64,000 nt of DNA, taken from contig NC_054746.1 in NCBI RefSeq assembly GCF_018143015.1, positions 16,235,532 to 16,299,531 of the forward strand, read 5' to 3'. This DNA is from Lytechinus variegatus. Its lineage: Eukaryota; Echinodermata; Echinoidea; Temnopleuroida; Toxopneustidae. Positions 3,829 to 39,300 of this stretch are shown here, piece after piece; within the stretch, counting starts at the first letter, position 1; each line of letters opens with the position of its first letter. The notes under the pieces are model-generated. The model was given only the letters and a program-made list of their open reading frames with translations, was not told where the DNA came from and did not search any database. Both the position numbers and the translations under genes were made by a program.

Positions 3829-4306
3829 CCGATGGTTGGATTTAGCAAGGGAAAAACATCCACTAAAAAGAGATAAATCTTTAGACGAATAAAGCGTTAT
3901 TATCGGTCGTTTTAATCATCCCATTTTTGCTTCTTCCTATTTTATTCGAGGAGAATATTGAACGATCCATATTTTTGTGAGAAGTTTGAATATGATATTG
4001 ATAAGCATATCAATGTCAATCATATTTTTTAATGGATTGGGTTATAAAAAGACAAACGAATATGAACCGTTATTTACCTAATCTTAAGTTTATGAAGAAA
4101 GTGTTTGGCTGCAGAAGAAATGCAATTGATATGACCGAGAAAAATTTGGTTCTCTTGCCAGATCAGAAAATAGCGCGCTAATTTGAAAACTCGGGCTGAT
4201 GCAGATCGACATGTATTATATTATGTAAATATTTTTTGTTGTACTGCTCTGAAGCGCTTGAGCATTTAATTAAGATGGAAAGTGCGCTATACAATCTCAT
4301 GTAATT

Positions 4307-4440
4307 ATTATCATCATCATCATCGTCATCATCATCATCATAATCATCATTGTTATTGAAATAATAATGATAATAATAATAATAGTAATAATGACGATGA
4401 TGACTGATAATAATAATAATAATTATCTGTAATATGTATA
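4307..4440. repeat. ATC and AAT microsatellites
   Basis: Runs of tcatca units followed by ataataataat-type units with a few interruptions. Simple sequence only. The rest of 3829-4870 shows no gene. Confidence 0.9.
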
Positions 4441-4877
4441 ACTTCGAATGTCAACGTACCCGGATAAACAACTTGAACAATGATAAGGCTAACTCATGTA
4501 ATATATTCCAGTTTTCATAATAGTTTGTCATATTTTGAAATATCATAATTGCAATAGTTAACATAATGGAAATATCTTTCATAACAAGATTCTAAGAATA
4601 TGAATAATTGTATAATACGTTGCAAACACTATTTTTGTTGTGGCGATGCATACTCTCTCCATCACAAAGTGATGGTCTCTCTGTTGTATTTTCATATACT
4701 GTCTGGCCCCTCACTCCATCTCTCTTTCATTGACACAGTCACCTTTCTTTTTCATTTAAGATGTTTGTCTCTTTCCGCATATTCCATCAGCTTTCTTATG
4801 TAATGTGTGTTAGGTCTTATGCATTGTGAATTGTACCTGTTCAGTTAATATATTATATACATGAAAGGGAGTTTCAC

Positions 4878-5105
4878 TAGCGTACCTACGGGGGGGGGGC
4901 AGAGGGGGCAGTCTGCCCCCCTGACGAGCCACAACCCATACAAAAGACATACCCCCCCCCCCGACGAGCTTGAGCTTTTTTTTTTTTGCTTGTCAAATTT
5001 TTTCTGGTACAATTGAAGAGGTTTTTGATTGAAGATTGAAGACCCTTTTTTTTGCTTGTCAAAGTTGTCGACCGGTTTTGCCCCCCCCCCCCCCCCCTGT
5101 TTGTC
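4878..5105. repeat. homopolymer-rich repeat fragment
   Basis: A cluster of G, C and T runs (G run near 4890, C runs near 4950 and 5085, T runs near 4977 and 5046) with two copies of ttgcttgtcaaa. A related piece (ttgcttgtcaaaatttcctc) appears near 43606, so this is probably part of a dispersed repeat. The frames crossing it are low complexity and not credible genes. Confidence 0.55.
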
Positions 5106-5589
5106 CCGGCCATCATCACTGGTAGAGGACCTGGGTTTATTGTACCTTAACTCTATATTTTGATTATATAAAATGATTATAATAACAATGATAATGAATG
5201 ATAATAATAATAAAATAATATAATTCAATTCTTCATCATCATCATCAAATAGGTCATAGCCTAAAAAAAAGTTATACTGAGCTGAGGGAGAGGGGGTACA
5301 TGTATATATGTGCAGCTATTGTAGCTGTACCTGTAACTTTGTTAGGCCTGGCCTACCATCAAACTCGATCCTCGGGCAAAATAAAATAAATTCCGAATGA
5401 TCTCTGTCTTCTCCTTTCCTTATTTCACTTCATGAACTTATATGAAATTCACATAATGAAATCAATCATTCACGGCCGTTTTGGGGTACACAGTCACAAT
5501 CTCGATCGGTCCTGCGACCCCTCTGACTGCGAACAAAACAGAGTACGAAACACCCGGTCATGCGAGCGGAAATAGGTCAATTAATTCGA

Positions 5590-5597
5590 TGACGTCA
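5590..5597. promoter_or_regulatory. CRE-type palindrome TGACGTCA
   Basis: A perfect TGACGTCA lies about 860 bp upstream of the SOCS start codon. This is the consensus CREB/ATF site. Whether it is used is unknown; no transcription start or TATA box can be assigned with confidence between 5300 and 6458. A second GACGTC core sits inside the palindrome tacgacg-tcg-cgtcgta at 5704-5720. Confidence 0.35.
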
Positions 5598-6458
5598 TTA
5601 TTTCCGTTTCGGCGACGAAAAAAAAAAGACCAGACAAAATATGTGAACACACTCAAAATGTACAATGCATAAATGCCTACGACGACAGGTACGGTACGTA
5701 CAGTACGACGTCGCGTCGTACATGTATATGCACGACATGTATCATACACACACACATGTACCTGCATAGCGCATTCACGATCACCGAGATCAGAGGGTAT
5801 TGTTTGCACAGATATACAGAGTCAGAGGAGGAGCATGTTAGAACAAGTTTTCAGAAGAGACTATACAATACCCGAAATAATATTTCACCAGTGATATGAC
5901 GTTTCATCGTACATTTCTGACTCTTGTTACCCCGTTCCTAGGATATTTTGTGAACGGATAAGATGATTTGATTCGGATGTAATTGTGTCTCCGCCGGTGA
6001 AGTCAATAAGAAGGGCCCCGATCCGATGTGTGCAAACGCGAACGTGAAGGCAGGACTCGCTATCGCACAGATTCTCCGACTCGCTGATGATGTGATGTCG
6101 CCGTCCTACACTGTTGTGCATGCAATTCAATGCAGTCACAGGTAACAGGGAGGCAAGTACACTGTGCCAGTGGATGTAGCTGAGGCTGAGCTAGCTGTGT
6201 GCCATGTGCTGTGTGGTCATTCCATGGTTTTGTATTATAATTTAGCAATTGTGGTCACTAGACGCAGAGTAAACTGAAGCACAGCTAACGAAACGTTACT
6301 TAGACTACGGTAAGATCTCAGTCACAGAAGCAAAGACCAAAGTAACTTTTTGTCAGGAGTCACATCATTTAGAACAGGATACTGTCGACTAACGACACGT
6401 TAATAGAAATTGAATCTAGACTAGACTAAAGTCAAGACTTTTGATAATAACAATAAAG

Positions 6459-8252
6459 ATGGCATCTGCTTCATCAGCATCAATTCTTTTTGCTCTCTCC
6501 AAAAGACGGTCAACTTCTTCTCCACAATTACATTGTGAAGCTACAGACTTTTCATCACTGACTGGAATTCCAAATGCAACAAGCACTTCTGCATCTTCTT
6601 GGTCAGATGGTAATGGGATCACTGTCAATACAGTAGACAGGAAAAGCGTGAAGATAAATAACATCACACAGGCATCTGTGCATTGGCTAGAGCCAAAGCA
6701 AAGGGCAGTTCTCCAAGATGTTGTAGACCCAGTGGTGAAACCCAAGAAGTCTGCATTTGTTCAGATGAGAGGAGGTAGCAGTGACAGAGAAAGTTCATGT
6801 CGACCTGGTGAAAGACAGCTCAGACCGGATTCTGAACTGCTATGTTGCAATGAGACAATTCATTATCTCCAAGGTAGTGATTCTGAATCAGAGACCTCTC
6901 CTGGAGGGTCACCAAGACGGAAATCGCACACTGGTATCAAGCAAAAATATCAAAGTAAAAAACTGAAGAGGTTTAGTAAGGCAGCTAGTCAGATATTTTC
7001 GAAACTGAAACTAGAATCCAAAAGTATAAGAGGAAAAGACAGGAGGAAGCACACTGATAAAAGCGACGATGACTCCGATGATGAAGATGTACTACCAATC
7101 TCAAGGAGACGTTCAAGGTCATTGACCAGCAGGGTAATGAAACGATTTGGGCACAAGGATGAAGATGTTACACACGAAAGCTCTGATAGTCCCAAGGCTG
7201 ATGCAACCACAGTCAAAAGCACATCGATGTCTTCTGATGAGAAAGAAAAGCAAAAGATAAAGCATAAAAAACAAGCCACAAAAAGGTCTTCCTCTTCAAG
7301 CAGGCATAGAAAATCACGACAATCCCCGCTTGTTAATTTTGCAAAGTTTGATCCAGAGAAGTATCCCATTGAATGTACCGAAGAAATCGAAAGAGCAGTG
7401 AGGGAAAGGGAAATAGAGGAGGGAATTTCTGTTGCTGCAATCGATTCACATGTACCCATCTCCCCAGGTGCAGTCGTACCAGCATCTGATATACTTGCTC
7501 GTCTGCAAAGAACAACAGTACCAGATACCTGTATGACAGTAACCACATTGCCTGAAGCCGGTGAAGCAAGTTCAAGCTCTTACCAAGTTGTTGATGCTCC
7601 AACACATACCACAGAAGATATCTATGATCTTTATGGATCGTTGACCCCATCAGGAACCTTCATACCTCGTACTGTTCATACTCAGATTGACTACATGCAT
7701 TGTCTCGTCCCTGATCAGTGGAACATCATGAAGTCTCCTTACTATTGGGGTAAAATTGATCGATACGAGGCAGATATGTTGTTAGATAACAAGCCAGAAG
7801 GTACATTTCTCTTGCGGGATAGTGCCCAAGAAGAGTTCCTCTTCTCTGTCAGCTTTTGCAGGTATGGACGCACCCTTCATGCACGGATAGAACAATGGAA
7901 TCACAAATTCAGCTTCGACGCTCATGACCCAGGAGTTTATTCTTCGGACACCATCTGTAGCCTCCTCGAGCACTATAAGGATCCTAATTATTGTATGTTC
8001 TTTGAGCCAATGTTGACCAATCCACTACCTAGGGCCAATCCGTCATCTTTGATGGAGCTCAGTAGGGCAAGGGTATGCCAGCATGTTTCATACGATACCA
8101 TTAGCTACCTGAAGTTGCCAAACAGTCTGAAAGAATTCTTGAGGGAGTATCACTACAAGCAACGTGTACGCATCAGGAGGGTGGAGGTTGACATGCCTCA
8201 AATTCCAGAGGCTAAGCAAAGCATTGTTACAAATACTTGCATCTCTAGGTGA
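6459..8252 (+). CDS. SOCS5: SOCS4/SOCS5-type suppressor of cytokine signalling
   Basis: Intact single-exon gene of 597 codons. The start is the ATG at 6459 (context aagATGg); the frame runs upstream only through non-ATG codons. The N-terminal 420 residues are serine- and charge-rich, with a basic stretch near 160-195 and acidic SDDDSDDED near 202-210. The SH2 domain spans about 429-525, beginning at [11 protein letters not shown], with FLLRDS (Arg453) as the phosphotyrosine pocket and [17 protein letters not shown] downstream. The SOCS box is about 530-576 ([10 protein letters not shown] as BC box, [14 protein letters not shown] as Cul5 region). The SH2 and SOCS box order, the EYHYKQ ending and the intronless coding region fit vertebrate SOCS4/SOCS5 and insect Socs36E. 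Family role: binds phosphotyrosine on receptors or JAKs and recruits Elongin B/C and Cullin-5 to ubiquitinate them. SOCS4 versus SOCS5 cannot be decided; it may predate their split. Two SOCS-box positions differ from consensus (see findings). Confidence 0.95.
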
Positions 8253-21118: not shown

Positions 21119-21319
21119 TTACTTGAGGACTGGCATAGCAACGGCAGCCCTGGAGTGAGTCACGTCTTCTGACCTCCAAAGCTGGGTGACCGTCTTGACC
21201 TGGGTGTAAAACTGGAGACCTTGTTTGCCATAGAAGTTGGTGTCTCCCTTGAAGGAGCCTCGGGATCCAGTGAAGGAGAACATGGGGAGGGGCACAGGGA
21301 TTGGTACATTCACACCGAC
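21119..21319 (-). CDS. ALDH6A1: ALDH6A1 coding exon 13 and stop
   Basis: 66 codons plus TAA, from [20 protein letters not shown] to [24 protein letters not shown] is strongly conserved in the family. Confidence 0.97.
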
Positions 21320-24300
21320 CTAGAAACCAAAAGAAAATAATTCTTGGTTCATTTCAGGTCAGATTTAGGAAAAAGGATCAAAGATCTAACTACAGGAAGA
21401 GTGTTGCATAAAGAGTGAAGTGTGATTTCATACAATAACATACAAAAGAAAAGGTGAGTGAATGACATCATCAGTTGCCTCATTTGCATACATGTATGTA
21501 AATAATATTGTGACATAGAGCGATATTTCAAAACATCGTAACTCTCTTATTTGACATCAGACTTTGATATTTTCAGCAATGGGATGCAATCTACAAGGCT
21601 GTATGGTTAATTTTTACCAAATCATATTTTTCTAATATGAATTAATTATGCTAAATTATGTTAATTCACTGGAGGGTATTCATTTGTCTCGCAATCTACT
21701 ATGGTCAACAAGGAAATTCGTGATCACTCTCGCAAAAAGTGTTCACTGGCTTTCTAGGAAATTCGTGATCACTCTCGCAAAAAGTGTTCACTAGCTTACA
21801 AGTTCATGAGCTTTCGAGTGCCGCTGCAACTCTTTATCAAGTGACGAAAATTGTCCGATATCGTACTCTATTTATACTAATCTCCAAGACCGTACGCACA
21901 AACGCAGGATTAAGGAGGCTATTAGTATACGTCTTTGTCCTAACAACTTCAACAGAGACAGCGGGATCGACATCCCCGATTTCTGAATGCGAACCATCCG
22001 ACAGCACAATAACCCCCCTTACCTGACAGTACACGCTGACCCGATCGTTCCCGGCCCCGATCGAGGGACCGCTCAGCTAGTCAACCCCCGCCCACGAGAA
22101 ACTAGCGAGCCCGCCAATTTTGGTCTCATTTGCATATTGCAGACCCACGGCGTATTTGCATATACCCCCGGCTTATTTGCATAACTCCTGACCAATCAAA
22201 CAACGGATCAGTGCCCACCTATTGTCCTCGCGTTTGTGCGTACGGTCTTGGAGATTAGTATAAATAGAGTACGATATCGGACAATTTTCGTCACTTGATA
22301 AAGAGTTACAGCCGCACTCGAAAGCTCGTGAACTTGTAAGCTAGTGAACACTTTTTGCGAGAGTGATCACGAATTTCCTAGAAAGCCAGTGAACACTTTT
22401 TGAGAGAGTGATCACAAATTTCCTTGTTGACCATAGTAGATTGCGAGACAAATGAATACCCTCTAGCGATTATTTCAATCCGCAATAATGAACCTATTTA
22501 GTATGTTAATTCATGCGTTAATTATGCTAAATTATGCGTAAATCATACTCTTTGCTCTAATTCACTACTAAAAGCTCATAGAGTGCTAATTTTTGGTGTA
22601 AATATTTTCATACCATTGTTAACAATTACAAATGAAAAAAATCCTGGTTTGGAAATGAATTTCTTGGGCATGGTGCATAAACCTTTTTACCTGAGAAAAC
22701 TCTGGTTAAAACTGAAAAACTAAGGTTAGTCTGATTTCTGCCATTGACTTTAACATAGGGCAAAACTCTAGCAAAAACAACCCGAGTTTTCTCAGGTAAA
22801 AATTTTATGCAACGAGCCCCTTAAGCATTTCATTGTTCTATGAATTTATGTATTTCTTTGTTTTCCAACTTTTTGTTTTTCTTCTTTTTTTCCACAAAAT
22901 TTATAGAAGAACCTTTTAGAAGCATAATGATTATGCTAAAAATCAATTAATTTCAGCTGATAAAAGTAAAAATAATCATATCTTTACAAATAAGGTGAGA
23001 AAATTCAATTTACATTGACTTTGTACACAAAATCACCTTTTGGAGCAATTCAGGTCTGACACGCACTTAGTAATGTTGCGTAATTTTTGAACCGCATACC
23101 TGGGCATTGTAAATTTGGTCTCAAAAGATGCACAAGACTTCAAAGTAAAAAGTCGGTGAATGGCGAGGTCGAAAATTTTCAGTGGTATGGTCATGGAAAA
23201 TGTCGAGGGGGGGGGTCGATTCAACCCCCCCCAGCTTTAGGGTTAAGCAAGGTGATTTTTTTTAGCTCATCTGTCACTTAATTGCTGTGATAATTATGAC
23301 TACAGTCATCAGAGTCTATATGGACACTTAACAATAATGTAGACTGTGGAGAAATAGTAATAATAATATAGGGTATTTATATTGCGCACATATCCACCTT
23401 GTTAGGTCCTCAAGGCGCTCCTACATTACCCGGCTAAGCTAGGCGTTCATAGCGCACACAGCTTTTTTAAGGAATTACTTTTTATAATCACTTTTTACTT
23501 ATTGTAAACCATGTAATGATGCTTATAAAATAAAATTGAAGATAGGCCTTCTCACCTGACCAACATCAATCAGTTCTGTGTAAGTCCTGGCAGTCGCTCC
23601 GTTGGTTGTGAAGATGGCAGTTCCGTTACCGTATGGGTTGCTGTTGACAAGTTCAATAGCTTCATCTAGTGTATCTACATTGACCACAACCAATACAGGT
23701 CCAAAGATCTCTTCCTTGTAGCAAGTCATATCAGTCTATTATCAAAGAAAACATGGAACTCTTGTAACCAGAGGGTCCTGGGTTCAAATCTTACACTAGA
23801 CATTAATATCCTTCAAAAAAATATTAATGCATACTGCACTGCACTCAGGAGGTTTAGGCCCCCCCCCCCCAAAAAAAAAATACAACGAATGCAATTTTTT
23901 CAAATATTGGGTCTATCATTCAGTCATTTTTTCTTCCATACATACACCAACACACCCAAACTACAAAAATAAAATCTTAAACACTGTAATTATTTCTAAA
24001 GGCTACACCACTGAGAGTATTTGAAGGCTCCAACTTTTACTAGCAAAAGTTTTTAAAAAGTCACCTTCCTAACCAGTTCAGAAAACCATCTCGCGATGTA
24101 ATTTTGAAGATCGCTTTGTCTCGTTAAACTGGTTTTAGCGTGAGGACACAATCGTTCTTCGCACATTTCATGCATGCCACTCTGCACACTGTACGTGGAA
24201 TGCCTACGCTGCGGTTTCAAATTTCACATGAAAAATGTCACCCCACTGAGGATGCTCCCATAGCAACAAGACCGCTTTACATGAAGTGGTTTTGAAAACC

Positions 24301-27300: not shown

Positions 27301-30300
27301 CAGCCCCTCCCCATCTGTATGACATTGCTTTCCCTTAATGCCTAGTCCACAAAATAAATGTAACTGAAATCCTTTTCACTTTAAATGTTGGAATATAAAG
27401 AAGTTAACATTGACATTATTTTTAAAATATAATTTCTTATCAAAACTAATATACTCTTCATCACTTAACACAAACTCGTATCAAATAGAAATATCTATAC
27501 AGAAATGTCAAGAAGCTTGCTTTCCTACCTTTACGTCTGTGATAATGGTTGGTCCAACAAAGTTGCCCTTCTCATAGCCTTCAACCACAATGTCCCTTCC
27601 ATCTAGGAGAACGTTTGCTCCCTCATCAACTCCAGACTGGATTAGCTCACATACCCTGGATTTAGCTTGGGGGGAGATCAAAGGGCCAAGATCTGCACCG
27701 GGCTGGTCACCTTTGAAACAAAAAATAAGTATCAATAAAGATTTCATGCACATACAGATATGATGCACCACGCCGTACACCGGGGTACTGTAGTACCTCG
27801 GGGTACGGCGTTGTGCAGCGCCATCTCGTGTTGTAATAGTGTACAATTACATTGTTGTCATGGTGATCACGGTCGTACGATCGGTGCGACAATCATGACA
27901 ATGAATGGGGACAATGATCACAATGCCTATTTCCTTTCTTTGATACAATCTAATGCCAATAATAGTAAACAAATTATGTTATACTTAAGAATTTAAGTAT
28001 ACTTTTCGACAGCTAACTTACACAAAAGATTAGCTTATAGTCCCAAAACTCGCCCTGGTACACGCGGTGGGGGTGGTGTAGGCTTATTACTCGTCCATCA
28101 CAGGCACAGCGCAGTGCATGTGCAGCGCATTTGCAATGGTATTGCATGATTTCCAAAAGTGAAGATAGCCATTAGTTTTTGTATAATGATCGAGCAATGT
28201 TTGGGGAGAGCTAAAATTAAATTTATGGACTTTGATTCTTGTGATTAACGTCAATAATTATAATTTTTTCAAATTTCATTCAAATATTCAACTAAATAAT
28301 TGAATTGAATTGAATTCAAAGACATAAGATCAATAATGACAACTACAAGTATCATTATTGAACAGTGAAGATTAGAACAGAACATGAAAATTAGAATAAA
28401 GTTATCATTTGCATGCATTAATTGTTACATAAGATCACTAAAAAGAAAGAAAAAATCTGTACAAAACATTAAAATATACTTGTACACATTTTTTGGTAAC
28501 CCAGGGTACAGCGCAAAAAACAAAATAAATAATTCAACAAAATGGCGAATTATTATTTGGTACCCCAGGGTACCAAATACTGCATCATATGGACAAAATA
28601 TTTCTCTAAAGATTTTTATAAACAATCACATTAGTCAATATCAATCAACATATCATGCACATTTATAAAGAAATAACAAATTACTTCTCTAAAGGCAACT
28701 GCACACCTTACGATTGACCTATGACCTAAATTTTAAACAAAATGTTATAACAATTTATGAGAAGAATAAATCATGTAACAGACTAGACTTCTAAATTCTG
28801 CATTGTCAAGTGAATACTCAAATGAAAATTAATTGGCCATTTATAATTCCTCTTCATAATTATAGAAGTGGAATGCCTCTGGCAGTCTCGCTTGCATTAC
28901 ATGATTTGATATAGCAGCAGTGCTGACTTTGAAAACAGCTATTTAATAATTATTCACTAAAGAAAACATTCATATGATAATGAAATACTATGTCCATTGA
29001 CCAAAAATGACCTTTGACCATGATCATGTGATCTAAGATGTGTGCAAAACAATCATTTATACTTGATTACTCTTATGTCTATGTTTTTTTAACTAGATCT
29101 ATAAACTTTCAAGTTGCGATGCTAATTCAACAAATACCCCCAACATGGCCAAAGTTCATTGACCCTAAATGACCTTTGACCTTGTTCATGTGACCTGAAA
29201 TTTGCACAGGATGTTCAGTGATACTTAATTACTCCTATGTCCAAGTTTTATGAACTAGCTCCCTAAAAATTTTAAATTATGATGGAAATTCAACAAATAC
29301 CCCTAACATGCCCAAAGTTCATTGACCCTAAATGACCTTTGACCTCTATATAGCTCTATATATGTTCAAAGTTATGATGACATTTCAAAAAGTTAACCTT
29401 AGGTTAAAATTTGATGTTGATGCCATTATCAGAAAATATCTTAAAAGCAGTTTCTTCCCATATCAATTTGAAGACCAGTTGTAGGGTGTGCGGTGGCTTT
29501 AAAATCTTTCAATTTAATCACTGAAAATACCAGGTGAGTGTTTCATAAAGCTGTTTGTAAAGTTATGAATAACTTTATGCGTGACTGGAACATGTTTTTA
29601 GGTCCTTAAATGACATAGGGATATAACACTAAGCACAATAAAGGGTCACTAGTTGTGTTAAGTCATTTGTATCTTAACCCTATCTAGGCCCGGGGTATTT
29701 TGGGAGTTCATATGGCCTCCCAGGCCCCCGTTGAGATCTCGGCCATCGACCGCGCGATCGCGCCGAAAATTGGCACGCAGGTTGTCTGGGATATAATCTA
29801 CAAAATTGTATAGTAATTTTTTTCATGCGAACTGTTATTAGGTAATTATGCTAATTTATGCGTAATTAGTATGCGAAATCATACTTTTTCCTCAAACTCC
29901 ATAAATAAAGCTCCAAATGTTCTAATTTTTGGCACAGAAACTCTTTGTGATGTTCTTAGCAAGTGTACATGAAAAAAATTTTGATATCAGATCAATTTCT
30001 TATGTATTATATTGTTTTCTGCAATTTCTTATGTATTTCTCTCTCTGTTTTTTTGGACCTTTTGTTTTTTCAATGAAATTCGTTGGGGACTCTTCTCAGA
30101 TCATAAACAGCATAAAATTCATTCATTTACGCCAGCAAAACTAAAAATAATCATACATTTATGATTTTTGGTTGAAAACACTATTTACATTGACTTTGTA
30201 CACGAAATCACGTTTTTAGCAATTTTTGGTCTGACATGCACTTACATAACGTTGCGTAACTTCGTAACCGCGTACCCGGGTGACGAAAAATTGGTCTCAA

Positions 30301-36300: not shown

Positions 36301-39300
36301 TACCAAACGCATTTATAAACGTATGGATTATTCTTCTGACTATGAAACAGAGGGTCATGGGTTCGAATCCCAGCCAAGGCGTAATTTCCTTTGGCAAAAA
36401 ATTTATCCACATTGTGCTGCACTAAACCAAGGTGAGGTGAATGGGTACTTGGCAGGAATTTATTCCTTGAAATGAAAAAACGCTGTACAAGGCAAATGGC
36501 TAAAGCCAGTAATAATATCAAACAGAGCAAATAGGGACGCATTTAGCAGTGATATGTGCTAAATAAGCATGTTGGTATTATTATTAAATAATTTTTTATT
36601 ACATTATTTAGTCTTATTTACCAAAGTTATCTTAGATTAACTGAAGGTTTCCTTTCCCTATAAATTTGGCCTATTGTTTTTGTTATGATCTTTTGTTGAA
36701 TTGTGTATCTTTCTTGTATTCTCACATTTATTATCTCTTACATGCATTTATACCTTGTAACTTTCTGCTTGCACAGAAGATATCCTTGGTTATCTACTGT
36801 AAATATGCAGGTACTCAACCAATACAGCATATTTGCTAGAATTTTATTCATTATTTTACTCAGAAAAAGAAATACAAACTACAATTACATATTGAAATAA
36901 TGCATTTCCCTTGGAAACCCTAGGGACTTTATGGCAATTGCCTTCTGTCCAAGTTCCAAGGGAATGGAACATAACATGTAAAAAGAATCATGAAAATAAT
37001 TGAATATTGTATGACTGCCGAATATGCCCATAACTGTAAAGGTGTACAGGATTGCTAGTATTTTACCCCCCAAAATATCTATTGAAATCACATAAGACTT
37101 ATTTATTGAATGACAAGAATTCAGTACTTTAAAAAGCCTTTCTTTTCACTGGGTGCTTATTGTGCTTTTCTTACCATATTATCTTTGATGAGCTGTTGAT
37201 ATTTGAACATGATCTGTTGCCTTGAGAGGATACTAGTCTGAGACCACGCTGGGAAGGCGTTCTGTGCAGCATTAACGGCTGCTTCCATCTCACTGGAAGT
37301 AGCTTTAGGGACCCTTGTTACTACCTCATTGGTTGCCTGTGTTGTGTTAGATCAGCCACAAAAGATTTTTTTTTAAACCATCACTTTATTTCAATTTCTA
37401 AAATCAAACAAAGGATCTTAGATGAAGTGTGTACATAAAAAAGGAAATAAGCTCAAGTGATCAACTAGAAATATAATTCTGGGCAACACAAGAGAGTCAT
37501 ATGAAACAAAACTGCAAAGACATAAATTACTAAAATTTCAAGTTTTGAGCATTGAAACATATTTGCAAACAAATGATACATAGGCAGCGGAATGGGAGGC
37601 ATGGACAGAAAAAGGGGCAATATTTGTCCTTCAAACAATTACAATTTGTCACCTTTGAAGCAAATGTGCATAACATCTAAAGATAAAAAAGTATTACTGA
37701 TATTAATCACAATTCCTGGAGAACCAATTTTCACTCATTGATAGAAATCTTATCCTATACTTGTAAATAAACAAGTAATATTGATTCCAGTAATCTCAAG
37801 GCTGAACACTATATCCATGGGTTTTATAATTTCAATTAGGACCAAAAGCAAAAACATCAATACAAAGGCTATCAACTAGTGTGTTGGCTCAGTTGGTAGA
37901 GCATCCGTCTCACAACCGGGAGGTCGGGGGTTCAAACCCCGGCCGCGTCAGACCAAAAGACGTTAAAAGATGGGAGTTGCTGCTACCCTGTTTGGCGTTC
38001 AACGATAAAAGGTATAGAGCCTCGTCGATCTGGCGCTGCACAGTGGCTGCCGGGCCCACGATCAATTGGGCAAAGCAAATTTTTGGAGTATTTCATTTCA
38101 TGTCTATTTCGAACAATAAATTATGGATTTTCATGGATTTTCATCTTCAGAATGTTTTAATCATTTTACAATAAGTTGGAAAGATAAACGTATATTGATA
38201 GTTTGTTAATGGACTTACAGGATTATGGACATCAATCCAGTCTGCAGTCTGGGAGTCTACCATCTCTCCATTGATAAGGAGTTTGGTAGTTGGCTGTGAT
38301 TGTCGAAATTGATGAAAGGAAAATAAGTATAAGTTTTTAAACAAATTTCAACATTAAAACAGATTTCACATGTAAATGCATATCAAATTTTGAAGGAAAG
38401 AAAAGGGATTTCTAAGATAATGTCCAATGGTACATTTCAGGGCAGTGACTACATGTACATGATGCACTGTTAGTGATTCACAAATTTAGAAATGAGAAGT
38501 TGCATAATGATCATACAAGGATGTTCATACATGTAGTCCAACAGTAATATCATGAATTATTCATGTTTAGGCAACTATTCCCTGAGTTCTGATAAAATAG
38601 TATGGCATACTTAAAACAACAAATATTCAACCATCCTTCTAAATAGCTTCAGCCATGTCAAATCTGTTCAATTCCTAGCTCTATGCCTACAAGTTGTGAA
38701 TACTTAACAAGCATTTTTCACAATACAAAAATCACAAACTTTACAAACCTCATGCATACAATACTTACTGCACTTGAGTAGTGACATGTTCCAGCTCGAC
38801 TACCAAGCAGACTCTAAAAATTAAAACAGAAATTTAAAAATGAGAGACCTCCATAGACAGAATAGAGAATGAAGCTTTAGCTTTCTAGTTAGCTACATGT
38901 TGCTTTGATTTGGAAGGAAATGTGAGATGGACTGACATAATGCCATTCCACAGATTTGTAAATTCTTCTGGATTTGTAACAAAAGCTTAATTTCTTTAAA
39001 AAACACAGTGACAGTAAAGATCCTACTGTCCTTCAAGCACTTGCTCTGAGTTTTTTTTGTCAGTTTCGATAACATATGTCTATAATGTAATTTCCCTCAT
39101 TTTGTGGGTACAGTACTTATAGTTTGGACAGTTATTTGGCCTTTTATTTGTCAAGTGCTGTGCATCTGGTCTGGCTTCTCCAAGTAGAACCTGATTTAAA
39201 AATTTGTGTTAAACAAAAAAAAATGACTACCACTACCATTGGCTTTAAAACCTGAGATCAATTCTTCCATATTAGTGAATTTTTACTAAAGGCCAAAATT

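Follow-up and report, generated by a model that had tools for sequence, protein, structure and literature searches.

A long palindrome in an ALDH6A1-like gene of Lytechinus variegatus, read as a truncated head-to-head Penelope-like retroelement with an H2B-like promoter layout

The palindrome and the tandem unit behind it

The window (the whole 64,000-nt stretch of DNA that was analysed) contains parts of an ALDH6A1-like gene, with a C-terminal exon motif at 21260-21304 (-) and an upstream ALDH exon at 27508-27846 (-). A long palindrome lies between the two, about 360 bp from the C-terminal motif. Because ALDH exons on the minus strand stand on either side, the palindrome is placed in an intron, with its complete promoter antisense to the gene. 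Elsewhere in the window, a long open frame with SH2 and SOCS box (6420-8252) represents a SOCS-family gene.

A sequence-only reading of the window had described two inverted arms of 234 bp. An inverted-repeat search recovers them at slightly greater length, 240 nt each (21666-21905 and 22230-22469), 97% complementary and separated by 324 nt. The outward-facing TATAAATA in each arm, the CCAAT box in the centre and the three ATTTGCAT octamers there, whose spacings are 26 and 21 bp, are also as that reading had them. Its right-hand boundary is corrected, since a tail carries the element beyond the right arm to 22501. In the terms of the interpretation developed below, the features are as follows.

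21657..21668 (+): left target-site duplication (TSD) TATGTTAATTCA, an exact 12-bp repeat read by eye
21669..22501 (833 bp, no strand assigned): whole insertion of a Penelope-like retroelement (PLE), an inverted pseudo-LTR arm head-to-head with a 5'-truncated copy; bounded by the TSDs, and from blast
21669..21905 (-): left arm, inverted pseudo-LTR without tail; outer end at reference position 562
21804..21844 (-): hammerhead-like RNA of the left arm, one stem I pair lost; fold comparison
21869..21876 (-): TATAAATA of the left arm, facing outward and lacking the octamer/CCAAT set that normally stands behind it; motif search
21902..21905 (no strand assigned): 4-nt microhomology ACGC at the head-to-head junction; overlap of two blast matches
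21906..22105 (+): decayed C-terminal end of the PLE ORF, TAG at 22103-22105; compared with the intact ORF of locus L041
22128..22182 (+): three octamers ATTTGCAT, starting at 22128, 22154 and 22175
22190..22198 (+): CCAAT box GACCAATCA, intact in 37/37 family copies
22230..22469 (+): right arm, pseudo-LTR; inverted-repeat search and end mapping
22259..22266 (+): TATAAATA of the complete right-hand promoter, in 37/37 family copies
22291..22331 (+): initiator-like TCACT (22291-22295) and hammerhead-like RNA with a U3-A8 core; motif and fold comparison
22470..22501 (+): PLE tail, 14 nt into the ORF start (ATGAACCTATTTAG at 22488-22501); comparison with the tandem unit
22502..22513 (+): right TSD TATGTTAATTCA, an exact 12-bp repeat read by eye

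The octamers and CCAAT box stand in normal order upstream of the right-hand TATA only; behind the left TATA lies the ORF fragment. Octamers are not rare singly (12 in the window with 8.2 expected, and as many in 15 of 100 shuffles), and three within 55 bp are improbable (Poisson 6e-8 per stretch at the window rate). It had been stated that neither arm encodes a protein. This is true of the arms but not of the whole centre, where 21906-22105 holds the C-terminal part of a retroelement ORF. This part is decayed: it has an in-frame TGA (21984-21986) and, relative to the intact L041 ORF, has gained a net 2 nt by insertion. Close to the element, at 22684-22802, two inverted 24-bp arms (96%) are separated by 71 bp; this repeat resembles a small hairpin or MITE.

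Separate searches of the 870-Mb assembly (33 contigs) found both arm and centre dispersed by the hundred. The arm has at least 43 matches (best 40 of 770 candidates scored) and the centre at least 40 at 95-100% identity (best 40 of 315 candidates scored). Where another fetched copy contains both centre and arm, they are continuous and make up a single terminus of ~560 bp; other copies are tandem, or have one arm only within the stretch fetched. At L041, three termini follow one another on one strand, and an intact ORF lies between the first two (tandem units, 4075-7272). This is a single ORF of 823 aa (4801-7269). The order of the tandem unit is ORF, octamers and CCAAT, TATA, pseudo-LTR and then, directly, the ATG of the next ORF. 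The first 200 bp of the centre are thus the last ~65 codons of the unit's ORF, and the arms are pseudo-LTRs. In blast comparisons with the L041 unit, 21666-21905 (-) corresponds to unit positions 2597-2836 and 21902-22503 (+) to 2271-2870.

The L041 ORF matches the reverse transcriptase (RT) profile RVT_1 (E 5.2e-8, 33.3 bits, cut-off 29.6). Its C-terminal 223 aa match GIY-YIG (PF01541) with E 0.0054 and 17.5 bits, below the Pfam cut-off of 22.6 (E 0.21 for the whole ORF), and the string GVVY...YIGET...R...H can be read in the sequence. A Pfam profile search with a family-C fragment returned no GIY-YIG match, and comparison by sequence with solved PLE and telomerase structures gave a single, chance-level match. 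Four PLE families of this genome were compared, termed A to D; the window element belongs to family A, and the related families are 56-63% identical to it in protein. Nine loci were fetched for the diverged families; two of them (L068, L069) proved to be family A, and in two others (L065, L072) a hammerhead string could not be read. The tandem arrangement with a pseudo-LTR between ORFs recurs in family B (L059).

Several of these traits are shared with Penelope of Drosophila virilis, Poseidon of Anolis and Pen of Adineta vaga. According to PMC3846280 and PMC11167929, PLEs of this type have a single ORF with RT and a C-terminal GIY-YIG(-like) domain, full or partial tandem arrangement, pseudo-LTRs with an adjacent inverted pseudo-LTR, a tail of ~31-40 nt, short TSDs, and a TATA and TCACT initiator in the pseudo-LTR. 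Family A differs by the set of three octamers and CCAAT that precedes its TATA, and by a hammerhead-like fold with a U3-A8 core in place of the standard hammerhead. The palindrome is therefore almost certainly a 5'-truncated, head-to-head insertion of a canonical, putatively endonuclease-bearing PLE in an intron of the ALDH6A1-like gene.

Formation of head-to-head insertions

Outer ends were mapped on a reference that runs from the start of the centre into the ORF, with its ATG at 581. Both outer ends are available for 13 distinct head-to-head copies. In 12 of these, the tail-bearing end falls at 593-604 and the opposite end at 558-569. The exception, L045, has a tail on neither end and no TSD was found for it. 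For four partly head-to-head loci (L019, L022, L055 and L056), one outer end is missing from the fetched sequence, and these are excluded from the count. Single arms at other loci fall into the same two classes with slightly wider limits, 563-573 and 594-607. The two end positions are thus ~34 nt apart, and the tail is on one end of an insertion. TSDs of 11-15 bp flank 12 of the 13 copies, one of them with a single mismatch in 15. For the window copy, a script had picked a longer, imperfect local repeat; this was replaced by the exact 12-bp duplication.

The junctions lie at differing positions of the unit. Nine of 12 simple junctions overlap by 1-6 nt (4 nt in the window) and three contain 5-10 nt of filler; the junction of L036 is too rearranged to be scored. 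Neighbouring copies within 4 kb, counted by eye, are 14 head-to-head, 3 same-strand and 0 tail-to-tail in family A (first 100 of 520 places), and 11, 4 and 0, respectively, in family B (73 listed places).

The head-to-head joining, the ~34-nt tail on one end and the 11-15-bp TSDs match published PLEs. PMC3846280 describes PLEs with inverted pseudo-LTRs, a 31-bp tail and TSDs of 8-10 bp, as well as cases without TSDs, and places a TATA and TCACT within the pseudo-LTR. PMC11167929 reports that the Anolis PLE enzyme cleaves and extends both strands, and that two internal start sites account for the tail. The two classes of ends, the TSDs, the variable microhomology junctions and the likeness to published PLEs lead us to read the insertions as the result of priming from both target nicks. 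The element's enzyme would cut both target strands ~12 bp apart, reverse transcription would start from both cuts at two adjacent sites inside the template RNA, and the two truncated cDNAs would meet by microhomology to give the palindrome.

A palindrome could also arise if one cDNA or antisense RNA primed itself or switched template, and PMC3846280 does propose self-priming for rotifer Penelope elements with palindromic junctions. However, in 12 of 13 copies each arm ends at a start site of its own, and the positions of the unit that meet at the junction are unequal. This agrees better with two separate starts than with one molecule folding back, and we regard such an origin as unlikely. Long inverted arms around a different centre, present in many copies with the arms intact, might instead suggest a DNA transposon of the cut-and-paste kind or a MITE, its terminal inverted repeats 234 bp long and its centre carrying a promoter as cargo. 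We give this hardly any credence, because longer copies carry an RT ORF and the junctions vary. Moreover, the ends are unlike, with a tail on only one, the TSDs are ~12 bp, and other copies are tandem or show a single arm in the stretch fetched. A CACTA/EnSpm-type transposon, with CACTG ends and a 3-bp ATT duplication, had also been considered and was dropped in view of the RT ORF in longer copies and the 12-bp TSD.

With priming from both nicks as the preferred reading, the divergent promoter pair is a by-product of inverted insertion. It had been described as a module, but it is not a fixed one: head-to-head junctions vary from copy to copy. Of the three origins suggested from the sequence alone, a mobile element that spreads a promoter comes closest, since arm and centre each occur at many places and the element is the owner of the motifs. 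The finding named there as a refutation, that the arms are termini of a described transposon whose centre varies, largely holds as to the kind of element. A striking palindrome is thus explained without a new kind of mobile promoter, and family A, with a tail on one end only in 12 of 13 copies, offers a natural data set on how PLE head-to-head insertions form.

An octamer/CCAAT/TATA layout like that of H2B promoters

Across the distinct family-A termini, the three octamers are intact in 36/36, 36/37 and 37/37 copies. Outside CpG, 1 of 42 motif sites is variable, compared with 58 of 461 other sites (Fisher p 0.03); the test is weak, as similarity was the basis on which the copies were picked. 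Counted from the first T of the TATA, the A of TCACT is 34 nt away.

The other families are arranged differently upstream. Families B (L059, L061) and C (L063, L064, L071) have TCATT 32 nt from the TATA, and one family-C copy (L067) has TTATT in its place. An inverted CCAAT pair (TGATTGG...CCAATCA) is present in L059, L063 (reverse strand), L064, L066, L067 and L071. In most of these loci, TATATAA or TATAAAAGG is present as well, with a minimal hammerhead core after it; L066 has neither of these TATA strings, and the core is decayed in L064 and L066. In family D (L083, L087) the TATA is represented by no more than a TATAAC-like string, and TCACT follows at 33 nt. No octamer was found upstream in the fetched B and C loci, and neither CCAAT pair nor octamer in the family-D copies that keep the upstream part (L083, L087). 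Therefore, among the four PLE families examined, octamers are found in family A alone.

The motif order had been likened to that of histone H2B promoters. Ten upstream regions, from 36 H2B matches, were compared, two of them from near-identical tandem clusters; the H2B tandem repeats of this genome are ~7.4 kb apart. An exact octamer occurs in 9 of the 10 regions (0.2 expected by single-base shuffling), as does TATAAA; the region at L080 has a TATA with neither octamer nor CCAAT. Both the element and these promoters contain ATTTGCAT, which for the most part has the same orientation, a CCAAT box or the complement of one, and TATAAATA. They differ in that the H2B regions have one to three octamers over the fetched stretch, compared with three in 55 bp in the element, and in that they drive a histone ORF, whereas the ORF downstream of the element's motifs in tandem is the PLE polyprotein. 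No homology to the ten regions extends beyond the motifs, the longest exact match being 13 bp (TCTCATTTGCATA). The likeness is thus real as a layout but not as shared sequence, and it may reflect either a captured promoter piece or convergence, which look the same in this comparison.

The octamers, CCAAT box and TATA are most likely the element's own promoter. The block would act as a Pol II promoter, so that the copy at the 3' end of each unit would drive the next unit in a tandem, and the RNA would start near TCACT, at the 5' edge of the hammerhead-like fold. By analogy with the host H2B promoters, whose layout it copies, the element is likely to be expressed in dividing cells of the germ line or the early embryo. 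If an H2B-type promoter works in this setting, it would show how a retroelement can become tied to histone expression and spread outward-facing promoters into host introns. Among the matches listed in a literature search that paired octamers or H2B promoters with Penelope or retrotransposons, there was no publication on the subject.

The same motifs had led to the suggestion of a decayed head-to-head pair of histone H2A/H2B or snRNA genes, for which octamer, CCAAT and TATAAATA do occur as in the H2B promoters of this genome. Such a pair is unsupported because the motifs sit between PLE coding sequences, the C-terminus of an ORF for an RT and a putative endonuclease behind the promoter and a PLE ORF start in front, and no histone or snRNA gene accompanies them. 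The hundreds of near-identical dispersed copies and the tandem unit at L041 also contradict it (the gene comparison was made with H2B), and the chance that it is correct is negligible. Co-option of the insertion as a promoter or enhancer of ALDH6A1 is very improbable as well, if slightly less so. The element is intronic, near the ALDH exon motif, and retains its octamer/CCAAT/TATA set. However, this copy is 3-5% diverged from its relatives, has a broken ORF fragment and carries its complete promoter antisense to the gene; the proposal of a regulatory element within ALDH6A1 finds its sole evidence in the intronic position. Read as a single truncated PLE insertion, the window copy would have a promoter that points into host DNA, antisense to the gene, and it looks dead, with no sign of host use.

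A hammerhead-like RNA with a U3-A8 core

In family A, the string CACTTGATAAAGAGTTGCAGCGGCACTCGAAAGCTCGTGA begins at TCACT and is intact in 30 of 37 copies, with U3 and A8 unchanged in all 37. A genome-wide search with this hammerhead-like string gave 520 matches at up to three mismatches, and 0 for the control. At the same place, families B and C have ATTGC-CTGACGA-...-GAAACGTC-GC, which is a minimal hammerhead core, and family D has CAC-TTGACAA-...-GAAACGTC-GTG. The invariant hammerhead core CUGANGA...GAA with C3-G8 is not present in families A and D, which read UUGANAA (U3, A8) and keep the other core letters except in one family-D copy, L086.

Structure was counted over 19 distinct sequences from the four families, including the decayed L064, L086 and L089 and leaving out identical copies and L084 and L085, which are 5'-truncated inside stem I. 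This count replaced an earlier one of eight hand-picked strings (98.1% of 104 cells paired). In stems I and II, 94.7% of 247 cells are paired, compared with 77.2% in shuffles, and changes on both sides of a pair occur in 43 cells (15.4 in shuffles), over 7 of 13 pairs. When the alignment is slid by 1-3 columns, at most 50.3% of cells are paired, with 2 pairs and 5 cells changed on both sides. The number of pairs changed (201 of 500) and the number of pair types (443 of 500) do not exceed the shuffles, and the stem changes represent few events between four families. Covariation across the four families supports stems I and II. The core pair 3-8 is U-A in 13 sequences, C-G in 5 and unpaired in 1.

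Rfam searches matched no hammerhead in the window, L041 or L039, in families B and C (L059, L060, L061, L063), or among eight family-D loci, where the sole match was a 7SL-like RNA. Minimal type I hammerhead ribozymes of PLEs were reportedly described by Cervera and de la Pena in 2014 and by Lunse and colleagues in 2017, and U3-A8 cores may already stand in either work. All four families have one A between core and stem II, which is a difference from the minimal type I form. Family A further differs from that form by G-C for C-G at what we take to be positions 15.2-16.2. The present RNAs resemble such hammerheads (reviewed in PMC7761336) in their position within the pseudo-LTR, in both stems (I and II), in GAAA, in a vestigial stem III and in tandem arrangement. 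In families A and D, U3-A8 stands in place of C3-G8.

Stem II differs between families A and D, so the U3-A8 swap, if shared by descent, would have outlived much other change. On the tentative picture given below, its recurrence in family D beside a different stem II would point to a natural ribozyme variant of long standing, missed by current Rfam models. According to PMC11167929, the activity of a PLE hammerhead from a lizard is partly restored by C3G/G8C, and a swapped core pair in families A and D is thus not hopeless. If a U3-A8 core cleaves, hammerhead searches may have overlooked a class. In any case, hammerhead-like RNAs in PLE pseudo-LTRs form a data set on why such RNAs persist.

New here are the octamers in one PLE family of four and the U3-A8 hammerhead-like core in two; otherwise the element is of a known kind. 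A fuller picture, which we put forward tentatively and consider rather unlikely, is of a PLE lineage that acquired an H2B-type promoter. Its transcription would then coincide with that of the histone genes, during S phase in the germ line and the early embryo, and its RNA would start at a working hammerhead in which U3-A8 takes the place of the supposedly invariant C3-G8 pair.

Two short RNA-like sequences were seen in passing. A 7SL-RNA-like SINE lies within a family-D PLE (L070 326-424; G000:C6:33491025-33491139). It matches Rfam Metazoa_SRP with 32 bits and E 1.2e-5, below the gathering score of 70, and has 499 candidates genome-wide, of which the best 40, the ones scored, are all 89-100% alike. 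A 7SL-like Pol III promoter had been considered as a family-D feature and was rejected on its absence from seven further loci (L083-L089), among which only L083, L087 and, in part, L089 keep the stretch where it would lie; the 7SL-like part is therefore taken for a SINE nested in one copy. SINEs derived from 7SL RNA are known from primates, rodents and their relatives, and hagfish. A term search of the hagfish paper (PMC7245038) found none of sea urchin, echinoderm and invertebrate. In the window itself, a tRNA-like sequence at 37885-37941 (Rfam tRNA, 32 bits) is possibly the head of a tRNA-derived SINE.
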